Assembly: GCA_016235245.1 (NCBI GenBank)
Contig: JACRLO010000003.1
Location: 6,362-48,866, forward strand
Origin: Nitrospirota bacterium
GTDB lineage: Bacteria; Nitrospirota; Thermodesulfovibrionia; Thermodesulfovibrionales; UBA6898
Reading direction: 5' to 3'
DNA: 42,505 bases
Under the pieces are notes generated by a model. That model was not told the origin of the DNA, searched no databases, and was given only the letters and a program-made list of their open reading frames with translations. Every line of letters begins with the position of its first letter. The stretch's first letter is position 1. The translations under genes and the position numbers were made by a program. This document shows, piece after piece, positions 7,431-11,879 of the stretch.

Positions 7431-8456
7431 TTACTCTTTTCTGCCGTATTTGTGCACAGCCTCAACCATAGCGATTGCATTTTCAACCGGCGTTTCTGGC
7501 AAAATACCGTGTCCAAGATTGAAAATATGCCCTCTCGCAGGTTCTGCCTTGAAAAGAATATCCTTTACCCGCTCCTCGATATGCTCCTTAGGCGCAAAGA
7601 GCACCAGAGGGTCAAGGTTTCCCTGGATCGAATATTTCTTGCCCAGTTTCTTTGCAGCCTTCGCCATGTCAACGCGCCAGTCAATACCGATGACATCAGC
7701 CCCGCATTTCTTGACGATCTTGAGCAGTCCGGAGCAGTCGTTCACAAAATAGATGACCGGCACGTCGAATTTCTTCAGCGCCTTGATCGCCGACTTCACA
7801 AACGGAAATATCATATTTTCGTAGTCATAGGGCGCAAGAATACCTGCCCAGGAATCGAAGAGCTGCACCGCCTGAGCACCTGCATTGATCTGTGCCGAGA
7901 GATATTCAATGACCGTAGCAGTAATCTTTTCCATGAGGGCCTTGAAGAGACCGGGGTTCTGATACATCATCTTCTTCGTATGCATGAAGTTCTTTGAACT
8001 GCCGCCTTCTATAATATACGTAGCAAGCGTCCAGGGCGCGCCGGAAAAACCGATAAGCGGCACCTTCAGTTCCTTCCGCAGGAGCTTTATGGTATCGAGC
8101 ACAAAAGGCATGCTGTCTTCCGTGTCAGGGATGACCAGCTTGTCAACACCTGCCTTGGTCCTGACCGGGTCTGCAAGGATAGGCCCTTTCTTGTCATGAA
8201 ACTCAAGCGGCATGCCCATCGCCTCCACCGCAATAAGGATGTCGGAAAAAAGGATCGCGGCATCAACACCAAGGATATCGACCGGCTGAAGTGTCACCTT
8301 GGCTGCAAGTTCCGGGGTTTTGCAGAGAGTCAGGAAGTCAACCTTGGAGCGCACCTCCTGGTATTCCGGCAGATACCTGCCGGCCTGTCTCATAAGCCAT
8401 ACCGGCGTATAGTCAACCTTCTCTCCACGGCATGCCCTTAAAAATGTATCGTTCAT
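7431..8456 (-). CDS. hemE: Uroporphyrinogen decarboxylase
   Basis: A 341-residue protein that decarboxylates uroporphyrinogen III to coproporphyrinogen III. The N-terminal signature '[15 protein letters not shown]' carries the substrate-binding Arg residues, followed by '[10 protein letters not shown]' with the conserved Asp and '[16 protein letters not shown]'. The C-terminal '[15 protein letters not shown]' is also typical. Length is normal. The ATG overlaps the stop of the radical SAM gene (ATGA, 8453-8456), showing translational coupling. The next gene, the sensor kinase, starts 52 nt downstream. Coproporphyrinogen oxidase (hemF or hemN) is not in the window. Confidence 0.97.
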
Positions 8457-9172
8457 TTTTCCACCTTTTCCCTTTCAAGTCTTTTCGGTTTATAACTGCA
8501 GAATGGTTCTTCTTCGAGATAGTCTCCGTACACAGAATATGCCCGGGCCCTGCATCCGCCGCAGACATTCACATATTCACAGGCGCCGCACCTGCGCTTG
8601 TATTTCTTGAAATCACGGAGGGCCTTGAAGAGTTCAGAACCCTCCCAGATCTCCTTGAATGATTTTTCTCTGACGTTGCCTGCAGGCAGGTTGAAGTAGC
8701 TGCAGGGCAGGACATTGCCGTCAACATCGATCAGGCAGATGAGCTGGCCGGCAAGACATCCCTTGGACCCGCCGGTCGAAAATTTAAGGGTCCTCTTCTT
8801 GAACTTCTCGCCGTCCTCTTTTGCCCTCTGGAGCGTCACGCGGTAATAATGAGGTGCACAGGTAGGTCTGACCAGAAGAAGGTCCTCTTCCTTTTCCATG
8901 TCATAGTGCCAGTCCAGGATCTTGTCATAATCCTCTTTGGAGATGAGTTCGTTCATGATCTCCTCGCCCCTGCCTGTCGGAACGATCATGAACATGTACC
9001 ATGCGGTGGCGCCAAGCTCCTTTGCAAGTTTATATACCTGCGGGATCTGTTCCTGGTTCCTCTTGGTGAATGACGAGTTGATGATGAACTCGATACCGTG
9101 TTTTTTGAAAAGCTTTGCAGCGTTAATAGTCCCTGCAAACGCGCCTTTTTCATTCCTGAAATCGTCATGCAC
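8453..9172 (-). CDS. Radical SAM/SPASM heme-pathway-like protein, C-terminal part (frameshifted)
   Basis: This frame holds the C-terminal two thirds of a radical SAM protein that begins at 9530. It contains the rest of the TIM-barrel ('[19 protein letters not shown]') and a SPASM-type auxiliary cluster region with '[17 protein letters not shown]', 'GNVLPCSY' and '[19 protein letters not shown]'. That last Cys pattern is characteristic of the AhbD/NirJ group acting on heme precursors. The nominal GTG start at 9170-9172 is only the first start codon after the frame change; the frame is open further upstream and reads '[12 protein letters not shown]', the expected continuation. Removing one G at 9209-9210 joins both parts into a 358-residue protein of normal length. 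The stop overlaps the hemE start. Confidence 0.85.
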
Positions 9173-9188: not shown

Positions 9189-9530
9189 TCAAGACTGAGA
9201 GAGACAATCCTGAATTCCGGACTGTTTGATCTTATCGCAGATCTCGTCAGTCACGAGCGTGCCGTTCGTTGCAAGGCACATTCTGAGACCTTTGCCGGTG
9301 CCGTACTGCGCGATCTCAAAAACATCTTTTCTCGTAAGAGGCTCTCCGCCAGAAAGAACGACAACCGGCTTGGCATAGCTTACGATATCATCCAATACCC
9401 GGTAGGCCTCTTCAAGAGAAAAATCCGGATGACCCTTTATCTCCATTTCCGATGCAGAGCGGCAATGCACACAGCGCAGGTTACATCTGCGCGTAATCTC
9501 CCATGCTATCCATTTTGGGCTGAATTCCAT
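9189..9530 (-). CDS. Radical SAM/SPASM heme-pathway-like protein, N-terminal part (frameshifted)
   Basis: The N-terminal part of the same gene. It carries the SAM-cluster motif '[10 protein letters not shown]' (CxxxCxxC), '[17 protein letters not shown]' (the SAM-binding GGEP) and '[13 protein letters not shown]'. After 'IKQSGIQ' the frame runs into 'DCLSQS' and a stop, whereas the neighbouring frame continues with the conserved barrel strand. The cause is one extra G in the GG at 9209-9210. ATG at 9528-9530 has a GGAGG site 5 nt upstream, and a promoter lies at 9565-9593. By family it belongs with AhbC/AhbD/NirJ proteins, but which reaction it performs beside hemE cannot be decided here. The break may be a real mutation or a base-call error. 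Confidence 0.85.
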
Positions 9531-9564: not shown

Positions 9565-9593
9565 ATTATACCCCTGATTGAGGCAATTTTTCA
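9565..9593 (-). promoter_or_regulatory. Predicted promoter of the radical SAM-hemE cluster
   Basis: A perfect minus-strand TATAAT lies at 9565-9570, with TGAAAA (9588-9593) 17 bases upstream. It overlaps the end of hflX and sits about 35 bases before the radical SAM start codon. It would allow expression of the heme cluster independent of hflX. Confidence 0.6.
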
Positions 9594-11227
9594 TCAAAGA
9601 TACGCTCGGCAACAACACCAAGGAGCCGGGGGAAGGTCTTGCGGTCAAGGGCAGAGATCGTGACAGCATCAAAACGGAGCAGGAGGTTTGCCTCTTCCTC
9701 CCTGCTTATGCGGTCGATCTTGTTGAAGAGATAGAGACGCTGCTTGTCAAGAAGATTGAGATCAGAGAGTATCTTTTCGACCGAGGCTATCTGCTGTTCA
9801 AACCGCGGGTTCGATGCGTCTATGACATGCAGGAGCAGGTCAGCGTCCTCGAGTTCCTCAAGCGTTGCCTTAAATGCTGCCATGAGGTCCTTCGGCAGAT
9901 CCCTGATAAAGCCTACCGTATCGGTAATAATCACTTCGCGGTCGCGCGGAAATTTAAGCCTTCTGCTTGCCGTATCCAGGGTCGCAAAGAGTTTATCCTC
10001 AACAAAGGTGTCACTCTTCGTAAGCGCATTGAGGAGCGTTGATTTGCCGGCATTCGTATACCCGATGATCGAGACGATCGGCAGTCTGTTTTCGAGCCTT
10101 CGCGCCTTTCTCTGTCTCCGTGCCTCGCTCAGCATCTTCAGTTCTTTTTCAAGAAGGTTGATACGCTCCCGGACACGCCGTCTGTCTATCTCGAGCTTCA
10201 TCTCTCCAGGCCCTCTGCCTCCCACACCGCCCATAAGACGCGACATGGCAGTGCCTTTCCCCGCAAGCCTCGGCAGCCGGTATTTGAGCTGGGCAAGCTC
10301 GACCTGAACCTTGCCATCCCTACTATGGGCACGGCGGGCAAAGATGTCGAGGATGAGCTGCGACCGGTCAATTACCTTCAGTTCGGTCATTGCGCTGATT
10401 GTTTTGATCTGCGAAGGCGACAGGTCCTGGTCAAAGACCAGAAGCGTAGCACCCCTGTTCATGGCGTTGATAACCAGTTCCTTTATCTTGCCTTCCCCCA
10501 TGAGGTGACGGGAGCTGATCTCACGGGGACGCTGGATAACCGTATCGAGGACGACAACATCACTTGATTGCGCAAGCTCCCGGAGTTCGTCCATAGAGTC
10601 TTCCTGTTCATACTTCGGCATTTTCGATACGCTCACCAGAATGGCCCGCTCTTTCAGTCCGCCCGCATCCGGCCTGCCGGATGTTGAGCCGACATCGAGT
10701 ACGCGGACCTTTTCGGCCTCTTCCTCAAAGGAACTGACAAAACCGTCAAAATCAAAGTCCAGGGAATGGATATCCTCAGACGGCAGTACGCTGTAGGGCT
10801 TTGCGCCGCTGCCAGGGTCGAGATGGGCGATATAGAGCTTATCCGGCTGTCCAGCCTTAAGACCTATCGCAGCGATCAGGTCGAACCGGAGCAGAGAAAG
10901 GTCAGTCAGGTCATCATGGCTCAAAGGTTCATTATTAAGATGCGTATGGATGAGTCTAAGGCCGCGCAGATGCTTCCTGCCAAGCGGATAGTCATCAAGG
11001 TTCGGCAGGAAAAGGCCCTTTGCCTCACCGACGATAACATGGCTTATTTCTCCCTTCCTGGTCACGAGTATGCCTATCTGTCTTTTAAGCTCGGCGGATA
11101 TGCCTGCGATGTATTTGGCAAGCTCGATGCTTACAATTTCGTTATGCATGCGCCGGCGGTAGATCCTTTCGAGGGCATGGATCTGGCCGCCCTTCAAACC
11201 TGAGAGATGACCGTAAAGTTGCGGAAT
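9566..11227 (-). CDS. hflX: GTPase HflX (ribosome-associated), probable ATT start
   Basis: A 553-residue HflX GTPase, a family that binds 50S subunits and splits or rescues stalled ribosomes. From the proposed start, the HflX glycine-rich linker 'GGVGGRGPGE' is near 333-342, G1 'GYTNAGKST' near 389, G3 'DTVGF' near 436 and G4 'NKID' near 502. It is longer than E. coli HflX because of an N-terminal domain ('SGLKGGQIHALERIYRRR'), as in Geobacter-type HflX. The frame is open to an ATG at 11362, but that start would overlap the divergent macro-domain gene and add 45 non-conserved residues. The only start with a good ribosome site (GGGAGG, 5 nt spacing) is ATT at 11225-11227. It probably leads the heme cluster. 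Confidence 0.9.
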   Translation of the reverse strand: MPQLYGHLSGLKGGQIHALERIYRRRMHNEIVSIELAKYIAGISAELKRQIGILVTRKGEISHVIVGEAKGLFLPNLDDYPLGRKHLRGLRLIHTHLNNEPLSHDDLTDLSLLRFDLIAAIGLKAGQPDKLYIAHLDPGSGAKPYSVLPSEDIHSLDFDFDGFVSSFEEEAEKVRVLDVGSTSGRPDAGGLKERAILVSVSKMPKYEQEDSMDELRELAQSSDVVVLDTVIQRPREISSRHLMGEGKIKELVINAMNRGATLLVFDQDLSPSQIKTISAMTELKVIDRSQLILDIFARRAHSRDGKVQVELAQLKYRLPRLAGKGTAMSRLMGGVGGRGPGEMKLEIDRRRVRERINLLEKELKMLSEARRQRKARRLENRLPIVSIIGYTNAGKSTLLNALTKSDTFVEDKLFATLDTASRRLKFPRDREVIITDTVGFIRDLPKDLMAAFKATLEELEDADLLLHVIDASNPRFEQQIASVEKILSDLNLLDKQRLYLFNKIDRISREEEANLLLRFDAVTISALDRKTFPRLLGVVAERIFDEKLPQSGV

Positions 11228-11243
11228 ACTCGCCTCCCTGAAA

Positions 11244-11272
11244 TTAAAATAACCGGCAAAAGAACATATAAT
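11244..11272 (+). promoter_or_regulatory. Predicted promoter of the macro-domain gene
   Basis: TTAAAA (11244-11249) is followed after 17 bases by a perfect TATAAT (11267-11272) on the plus strand. It gives a leader of about 58 nt before the TTG start at 11337. It overlaps the upstream region of the divergent hflX gene, so the two units share control DNA. Confidence 0.6.
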
Positions 11273-11336
11273 GTGCAGCTTTGCTGTATCATTGTAGCAT
11301 ACAGTGCCGCTGCGAATATAAGAAGGAGTAACTATT

Positions 11337-11879
11337 TTGAAGATGATAGCCCACCACACCATTGCCGGAAAGACCCTGCGACTGATTCAGGGTGACATTA
11401 CACATCGGGATGTCGATTCCATTGTCAATGCAGCAAATTCCTCCCTGCAGCATGGCGGCGGCGTAGCAGGTGCTATCGTGCGCAAGGGCGGCAAGGTCAT
11501 CCAGGACGAAAGCGACAGGATTGCCCCGGTGTCTGTAGGACATGCGGCAATGACCGGCGCCGGCAAGTTGCCGGCAAAGTTCGTTATCCATGCGGTGGGG
11601 CCGAGGATGGGAGAAGGGGATGAAGAGAACAAGCTGAAGAGTGCGGTAGCGAACAGCCTCAGACTCGCCTCTGAAAAAAAACTTTCGACCGTATCCTTTC
11701 CTGCCATAAGTGCAGGTATCTTCGGTTTTCCAAAAAACAAGTGCGCAAAGCTGCTTGTGGGAGAGGCCGTGAACTTTCTCAAAAAACATAAAGAAAGCAG
11801 CCTTGCGGTTGTGGAGTTCTGCATTTACGATGACGAGACGCTCGATTATTTCAAAAAGGAATTTGATAAGCTGAAATAG
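11337..11879 (+). CDS. Macro-domain protein (predicted O-acetyl-ADP-ribose deacetylase / ADP-ribose hydrolase)
   Basis: A 180-residue single macro domain. The ADP-ribose-binding features are visible: 'LIQGDITHRDVDSIVNAANSSL' (the string is the classic Asp/Asn face), the 'GGGVAGAIVRKGG' loop, 'GAGKLPAKFVIHAVGP', and the second loop 'SFPAISAGIFGFPK'. MacroD/YmdB-type proteins deacetylate O-acetyl-ADP-ribose or remove mono-ADP-ribose from proteins. The start is TTG at 11337 with AAGGAG 9 nt upstream; the internal ATG two codons later is too far from that site. It is the only plus-strand gene in the first 28 kb and diverges from hflX. No partner ADP-ribosyltransferase is next to it. Confidence 0.93.
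   Translation: MKMIAHHTIAGKTLRLIQGDITHRDVDSIVNAANSSLQHGGGVAGAIVRKGGKVIQDESDRIAPVSVGHAAMTGAGKLPAKFVIHAVGPRMGEGDEENKLKSAVANSLRLASEKKLSTVSFPAISAGIFGFPKNKCAKLLVGEAVNFLKKHKESSLAVVEFCIYDDETLDYFKKEFDKLK

Follow-up and report, generated by a model that had tools for sequence, protein, structure and literature searches.

Sequence comparison supports an AUU start codon for hflX in a Nitrospirota genome and points to a near-cognate start retained across several phyla

Organization of the hflX locus

We analyzed a 42,505-nt stretch of DNA from a Nitrospirota bacterium, referred to here as the window, in which hflX lies on the minus strand and diverges from a gene encoding a macro-domain protein (Table 1). 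The HflX product passed the curated model TIGR03156 with a score of 438.4 bits against a cut-off of 216.75, and its Pfam domains (GTP-bdg_N, GTP-bdg_M and MMR_HSR1) are preceded by a long N-terminal extension. Judged by family membership, the protein would be a ribosome-splitting GTPase; in the available text of PMC9067457, HflX is described as splitting 70S ribosomes under stress and IF3 as an anti-association factor on free 30S subunits. Five Nitrospirota genomes (G068, G085, G109, G128 and G179) also carry a second HflX homologue with a shorter match, 44-46% identical over approximately residues 258-546.

Table 1. Coordinates of hflX, its candidate signals and the divergent gene within the window.
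Feature	Position	Strand	Remarks
hflX coding sequence from ATT	9566..11227	-	553 aa and a stop codon; form with a long N-terminal domain
Start codon ATT of hflX	11225..11227	-	ATT, ATC or ATA (AUH) in 243/325 orthologs, 219/243 at the exactly aligned codon
Shine-Dalgarno GGGAGG, 5 nt before ATT	11233..11238	-	anti-SD duplex energy -11.1 kcal/mol, equal in the window genome and in G002
Upstream in-frame ATG, rejected hflX start	11360..11362	-	sole ORF-caller start in the hflX frame
In-frame TTG (codon 11), rejected hflX start	11195..11197	-	within conserved N-terminal motif
Extended -10-like TGCTACAAT, probable hflX promoter	11291..11299	-	read by eye; congeners share a -10-like box
Divergent macro-domain (ADP-ribose-binding) gene, TTG start	11337..11879	+	Pfam Macro 1.1e-38

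The original prediction placed the start of hflX at an ATT behind GGGAGG with a 5-base spacing, and placed the upstream ATG (11362) within the divergent gene. Both were confirmed in the window, and an AUH codon is kept in relatives. On the minus strand the start region reads ...TTTCAGGGAGGCGAGT ATT CCG CAA CTT TAC GGT..., with the ATT opening the hflX frame and CGAGT (11232-11228) as the spacer. The TTG start of the divergent gene has an anti-Shine-Dalgarno (anti-SD) energy of -8.3 both in this genome and in its congener G002.

Because the hflX frame stays open for 54 codons upstream of the ATT and contains one GTG as well as the ATG, the start could not be settled from the genome's own sequence alone. 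We rejected the ATG because the divergent gene contains it, because the -10-like element lies downstream of it, and because in-frame stops intervene in G002-G005. We also rejected the TTG at codon 11, which has an anti-SD energy of -2.4, compared with -11.1 at the ATT, and which is a leucine codon, often CTN, in relatives. The -10-like TGCTACAAT is the probable hflX promoter and would yield a leader of about 55-60 nt; TATGYTACAATGATACAG of this region is common to L002-L007. When 11150-11500 was scanned for the sigma-70 consensus, the hflX strand gave no match, TGCTACAAT included. A DNA search of a plasmid collection gave no match.

Start codons in close relatives

The nucleotide alignment of close relatives that had been proposed along with the prediction was carried out, and it placed ATT at the same position in G003 and ATC in G002, G004, G005 and G007. 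An in-frame stop lies 17, 19, 16 and 16 codons upstream of the AUH in G002, G003, G004 and G005, respectively; the interval between stop and AUH holds no ATG, GTG or TTG in G004 and G005 and a single TTG in G002 and G003. The G007 frame is open for 65 codons upstream and includes two ATGs.

Within the order of the window, all 61 genomes had an hflX match at E 0.001 or better, although the best match was weak in G011, G013 and G043, where it is probably another GTPase, and the gene was in pieces in a few genomes. Among the 30 order loci listed, which comprise the window genome and 29 relatives, the aligned start codon was ATT, ATC or ATA in all 30 and ATG, GTG or TTG in none. Several of these loci, such as L018, L025 and L028, show an in-frame stop only a few codons before the AUH, and the short distance from a -10-like box to the AUH in L021 and L027 leaves hardly any room for another start in the leader.

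Start codons in the wider ortholog set

We assembled 339 hflX loci and set aside one that had no upstream sequence; 13 of the remaining 338 were duplicates, which left 325 distinct loci. Loci were fetched by match score or hand-picked from match lists without regard to start codon. In the phylum Nitrospirota, 277 of the 295 genomes searched had an hflX match at E 1e-60 or better, and the loci of this phylum included 10 new ones from that search, 100 start regions obtained through hand-picked coordinates and 30 from a further search. By scanning named genome contigs and aligning N-termini we kept the best 80 of 579 hflX loci; among these 80, 12 carry the names Nitrospirae, Nitrospira or Nitrospirales, and nine of the 12 were identical at the start to loci from the window's phylum, which identifies that phylum as Nitrospirota, and were dropped as duplicates. 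A search of Acidobacteriota from a Blastocatellia genome found 56 matches in 60 and added 19 readable starts, with 11 of 30 loci (L343-L353) excluded because the match begins after the N-terminal domain. The corresponding search of Desulfobacterota (Thermodesulfobacteriota at NCBI), which began from a Desulfofervidaceae genome, found 88 matches in 99 and added 70 readable starts.

By a fixed rule, 243 of the 325 distinct orthologs have an AUH start (87 ATT, 80 ATC and 76 ATA), five have ACG only, 75 have a canonical start (52 ATG, 14 TTG and 9 GTG) and two are ambiguous (L162 and L448); the AUH calls at codon +2 or +3 (L132, L138; L073, L116, L389) are less sure, and L116 may be ACG. Since sampling follows match scores, the shares per phylum do not represent unbiased frequencies: the 172 Nitrospirota starts consist of 155 AUH, 3 ACG, 13 canonical (GTG or TTG in four) and 1 ambiguous, the 68 Desulfobacterota starts of 53 AUH, 2 ACG, 12 canonical and 1 ambiguous, and AUH is found in 19 of 20 Acidobacteriota including Blastocatellia, in the single Nitrospinota record, and in 15 of 58 other named records, which are mostly deltaproteobacterial. 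The start was canonical in all 29 named Desulfuromonadales and in all six Myxococcota-like loci, five of them assigned by name and one, a Deltaproteobacteria record, by resemblance. ACG was the only plausible start in L113, L114, L394, L426 and L428, and perhaps in L116; these loci come from two phyla, and a strong Shine-Dalgarno site precedes the ACG in four of the five.

In most relatives the sequence before the AUH offers no alternative start. Reading from the upstream in-frame stop down to the AUH, 191 of the 243 AUH loci contain no ATG, GTG or TTG, and in 58 the stop is no more than 5 codons away. Downstream of the start, an N-terminal G-x3-[GS]-[LIM] motif occupies the same register in 328 of 338 aligned rows. 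The ATT at 11227-11225 is almost certainly the start of hflX, and we regard the call as strongly supported, about as firmly as sequence comparison permits.

We then followed codon changes on a FastTree tree of 96 N-terminal HflX residues from which the start columns were left out. On this tree, which is short and rough, a minimum of 66 changes occurred within AUH compared with 21 between canonical and non-canonical codons (37 and 9, respectively, in the Nitrospirota part), which indicates that the third base varies freely between A, C and T and rarely becomes G. Counting ACG against all other starts required at least 2 changes on the same rough tree, so that the second base may also change. 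An internal isoleucine codon lying behind stops and a Shine-Dalgarno site would hardly become ACG, ATG or GTG in relatives.

Shine-Dalgarno strength

The predicted near-cognate starts mostly sit behind a strong Shine-Dalgarno site. The anti-SD duplex was at or below -6 kcal/mol for 220 of the 243 AUH starts, and a GGAGG, GGAG or GAGG core ended 5-9 nt before the AUH in 180, while 35 had no such core within 20 nt. Median anti-SD energies were -9.5 for AUH and -4.1 for canonical starts (Mann-Whitney p 8e-28, with relatedness ignored), and part of this contrast may stem from the calling rule, in which the Shine-Dalgarno site settles loci that hold both kinds of codon. Among 8 independent pairs on supported branches, the canonical start had the weaker site in about 6; the median p was 0.03 at a threshold of -6 kcal/mol and not significant at -7 (0.06) or -5 kcal/mol (0.13). 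A strong site accompanied a canonical start in 16 of 75 loci, for example L388 and L404. The pairing of weak codons with strong sites and vice versa suggests that the output of hflX is held at a certain level.

Control genes

We compared hflX with der, another gene for a ribosome-associated GTPase, whose home codon was ATG in 29 of 30 relatives; in the remaining locus, L464, the motif had matched elsewhere. In many of these relatives (L454-L483) the der ATG lies only a few bases after a -10-like TACAAT or TAAAAT, as if the transcript were leaderless or nearly so.

A gap-aware survey of 215 ortholog pairs between the window genome and G002 flagged 29; in the others a canonical start is conserved, behind a strong site in 98 and behind a weaker one in 88. 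Six of the flagged genes, hflX included, had an AUH (or AUH/canonical) candidate with a strong Shine-Dalgarno site. Of the five besides hflX, we rejected three because a conserved canonical codon precedes the AUH, one because an ATG/GTG is taken once the gap is allowed for, and one because the candidate is a 92-aa frame antisense to a longer frame. The 23 others, which were partly inspected, showed neither kind of start by the rule and mostly stay unassigned. By that rule, hflX was the only one of the 29 flagged genes whose conserved AUH comes with a strong site and faces no competing canonical codon at the N-terminus.

Another gene with an odd N-terminus is rimM, which in the window's family (L270-L299) often lacks an ATG, GTG or TTG where the protein should begin. 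In the window genome (L282, G000:C21:101593-102111, minus strand) and in G002, a GGAG is followed at 8 nt by a TTA codon overlapping the stop of an upstream frame. Reinitiation, a frameshift or a very odd start are candidate readings.

The comparison with infC, which the original prediction had also drawn, proved apt, as infC in these genera and phyla also begins with AUH. All 17 motif-readable main-copy loci among 30 fetched from Nitrospirota have an AUH start (ATA or ATC after a GGAGG-like site), and ATA, ATT or ATC was found in 21 of 24 loci from other phyla, Desulfobacterota among them, the exceptions being two Myxococcota and one incomplete locus. In the window genome infC is cut by a contig end and its start is missing; in the congeners G002 and G003 it is ATC. 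Both genes had AUH starts in 9 genomes and both had non-AUH starts in two Myxococcota, yet infC was AUH in all 12 genomes outside Myxococcota that had a canonical hflX and in which infC was read, so that the two genes need not go together. Some relatives have a second infC, which seemingly begins with ATA in L036, L041, L042, L048 and L050 and with ATG in L043, from the window's genus.

Comparison with known non-canonical starts

Very few bacterial genes use ATT, ATC or ATA as a start, and to our knowledge those with a conserved non-canonical start amount to a handful (infC, pcnB, ccpN and cvfC1). The closest likeness to hflX is infC, encoding IF3, which also combines an AUH start with a strong Shine-Dalgarno site across phyla and whose product also acts on subunit association. 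Autoregulation of infC by IF3 was reportedly described by Butler in 1987, and it follows from the fact that IF3 itself discriminates among starts; we know of no such reading of start codons by HflX, for which control by IF3 is a hypothesis. The E. coli gene pcnB also has an AUU start, which Binns and Masters are said to have found in 2002 to limit its translation; pcnB encodes poly(A) polymerase which, unlike HflX, is not known as a ribosome factor.

In S. aureus, cvfC1 (AUU) and ccpN (AUA) resemble hflX in their conserved non-canonical start, extended Shine-Dalgarno site and low output; they are other genes, with starts shown by Ribo-Ret and reporters, and the AUA start of citZ in the same study is limited to one strain lineage (PMC13009471). 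The available text of that study contains no mention of hflX. Another translational GTPase has been assigned an AUU start, in two genomes, in which AUU was inferred to restore the full length, and the available text describes no conservation beyond these two (PMC1780047). The control of hflX described in the available text of PMC9067457 is transcriptional (heat-shock promoters, WhiB7 and rli80 attenuation) and not based on the start codon. A literature search of titles and abstract openings, with partial journal coverage, found no report of a non-canonical hflX start.

The start of hflX would therefore rank among the most widely conserved non-canonical starts after infC, and would tie ribosome splitting to start-codon discrimination. 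Gene callers restricted to ATG, GTG and TTG, such as the one used here, mis-place the N-terminus of HflX in these phyla.

A weak start and its possible sensitivity to IF3

Among the genomes sampled, a near-cognate hflX start (AUA, AUC, AUU and sometimes ACG) is held in most from Nitrospirota and Acidobacteriota, in many from Desulfobacterota and in one Nitrospinota record. Conservation of this codon across several phyla suggests throttling or sensing at translation initiation; the AUH start likely makes for low HflX output, and initiation may be kept weak and perhaps sensitive to IF3, as for infC. We consider fairly probable the combined reading in which hflX is translated from AUU, the start has been held near-cognate across phyla, and its output would respond to IF3. 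The third base pair of AUH with the initiator anticodon is weak, and such codons would engage the initiator tRNA poorly and be rejected by IF3. Abundant IF3 on 30S subunits would then keep HflX output low, and a shortage of IF3 relative to ribosomes, such as might accompany a build-up of idle 70S ribosomes, would raise it. With IF3 holding subunits apart and HflX splitting 70S ribosomes, one start-codon check on both genes could act as a homeostatic loop for the free subunit pool. Weak third-base pairs such as AUU/CAU are disfavored by IF3: when IF3 was raised in vitro, the full-length share fell for AUU/CAU and for other weak pairs (PMC10158994).

We put forward more tentatively, as an idea that is rather doubtful, that hflX and infC make up an ancient two-gene translational regulon common to several phyla, in which ribosomes lacking IF3 accept AUH behind a strong Shine-Dalgarno site. 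Such ribosomes, whether idle 70S or excess 30S, would make the two factors that split 70S ribosomes and separate subunits.

The main rival to the IF3 link is plain throttling, in which the weak start only keeps HflX scarce, since an excess that splits ribosomes would be harmful, and the level of IF3 has no regulatory part. This is a serious possibility, with a chance somewhat short of even. A strong site with AUH and a mostly weak site with ATG look like two routes to one low output, into which the ATG and weak site of the Desulfuromonadales hflX would fit, and S. aureus reporters with an AUU or AUA start reached about 10% of the AUG output in poor medium, with a maximum of 30% for ccpN when the medium was rich (PMC13009471). 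If weakness were all that mattered, however, the common weak starts GUG and UUG might be expected, and they are rare in Nitrospirota (the four of 172 noted above), while ACG has replaced AUH at least twice; together these favor a codon class over mere weakness, though not strongly. The weak sites at most canonical starts fit plain low expression as well as they fit IF3 sensing, and the canonical starts with strong sites fit both poorly. We propose IF3-dependent start-codon discrimination as a hypothesis that suits the pattern, which allows the simpler low-output reading too.

The other alternatives question the start itself. It is very improbable that the ATH is an internal isoleucine codon and that translation begins upstream at a canonical codon or by frameshifting. 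The open upstream frame in the window genome, with its GTG and ATG, would permit this, as would some ATG, GTG or TTG after the stop in 51 of the 242 AUH loci with a visible upstream stop; against it stand the 191 loci that have none, the 58 with a stop close by, the replacement of AUH by ACG and canonical codons in some relatives, the Shine-Dalgarno core at 5-9 nt, and the short leaders after -10-like boxes in loci such as L021 and L027. A start at a downstream canonical codon, with the AUH and its Shine-Dalgarno site as decoration, seems even less probable: the in-frame TTG is available as codon 11 in the window genome, but its anti-SD energy is far weaker, it is often CTN in relatives, and initiation there would cut into the conserved N-terminal motif. 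That the ATT is an artefact of metagenome assembly or a base error can practically be dismissed; the source genome is indeed a 41-contig assembly, but the same codon class occurs in three quarters of the distinct orthologs (243 of 325), from many assemblies that include the single-contig G014, G038, G040 and G047.

Two adjacent frames

In the window, two adjacent minus-strand frames (8453-9172 and 9189-9530) carry SPASM and Radical_SAM domains. They match residues 120-358 and 1-107, respectively, of one 358-codon frame in G002, and are one gene split by a frameshift, through either assembly error or decay.
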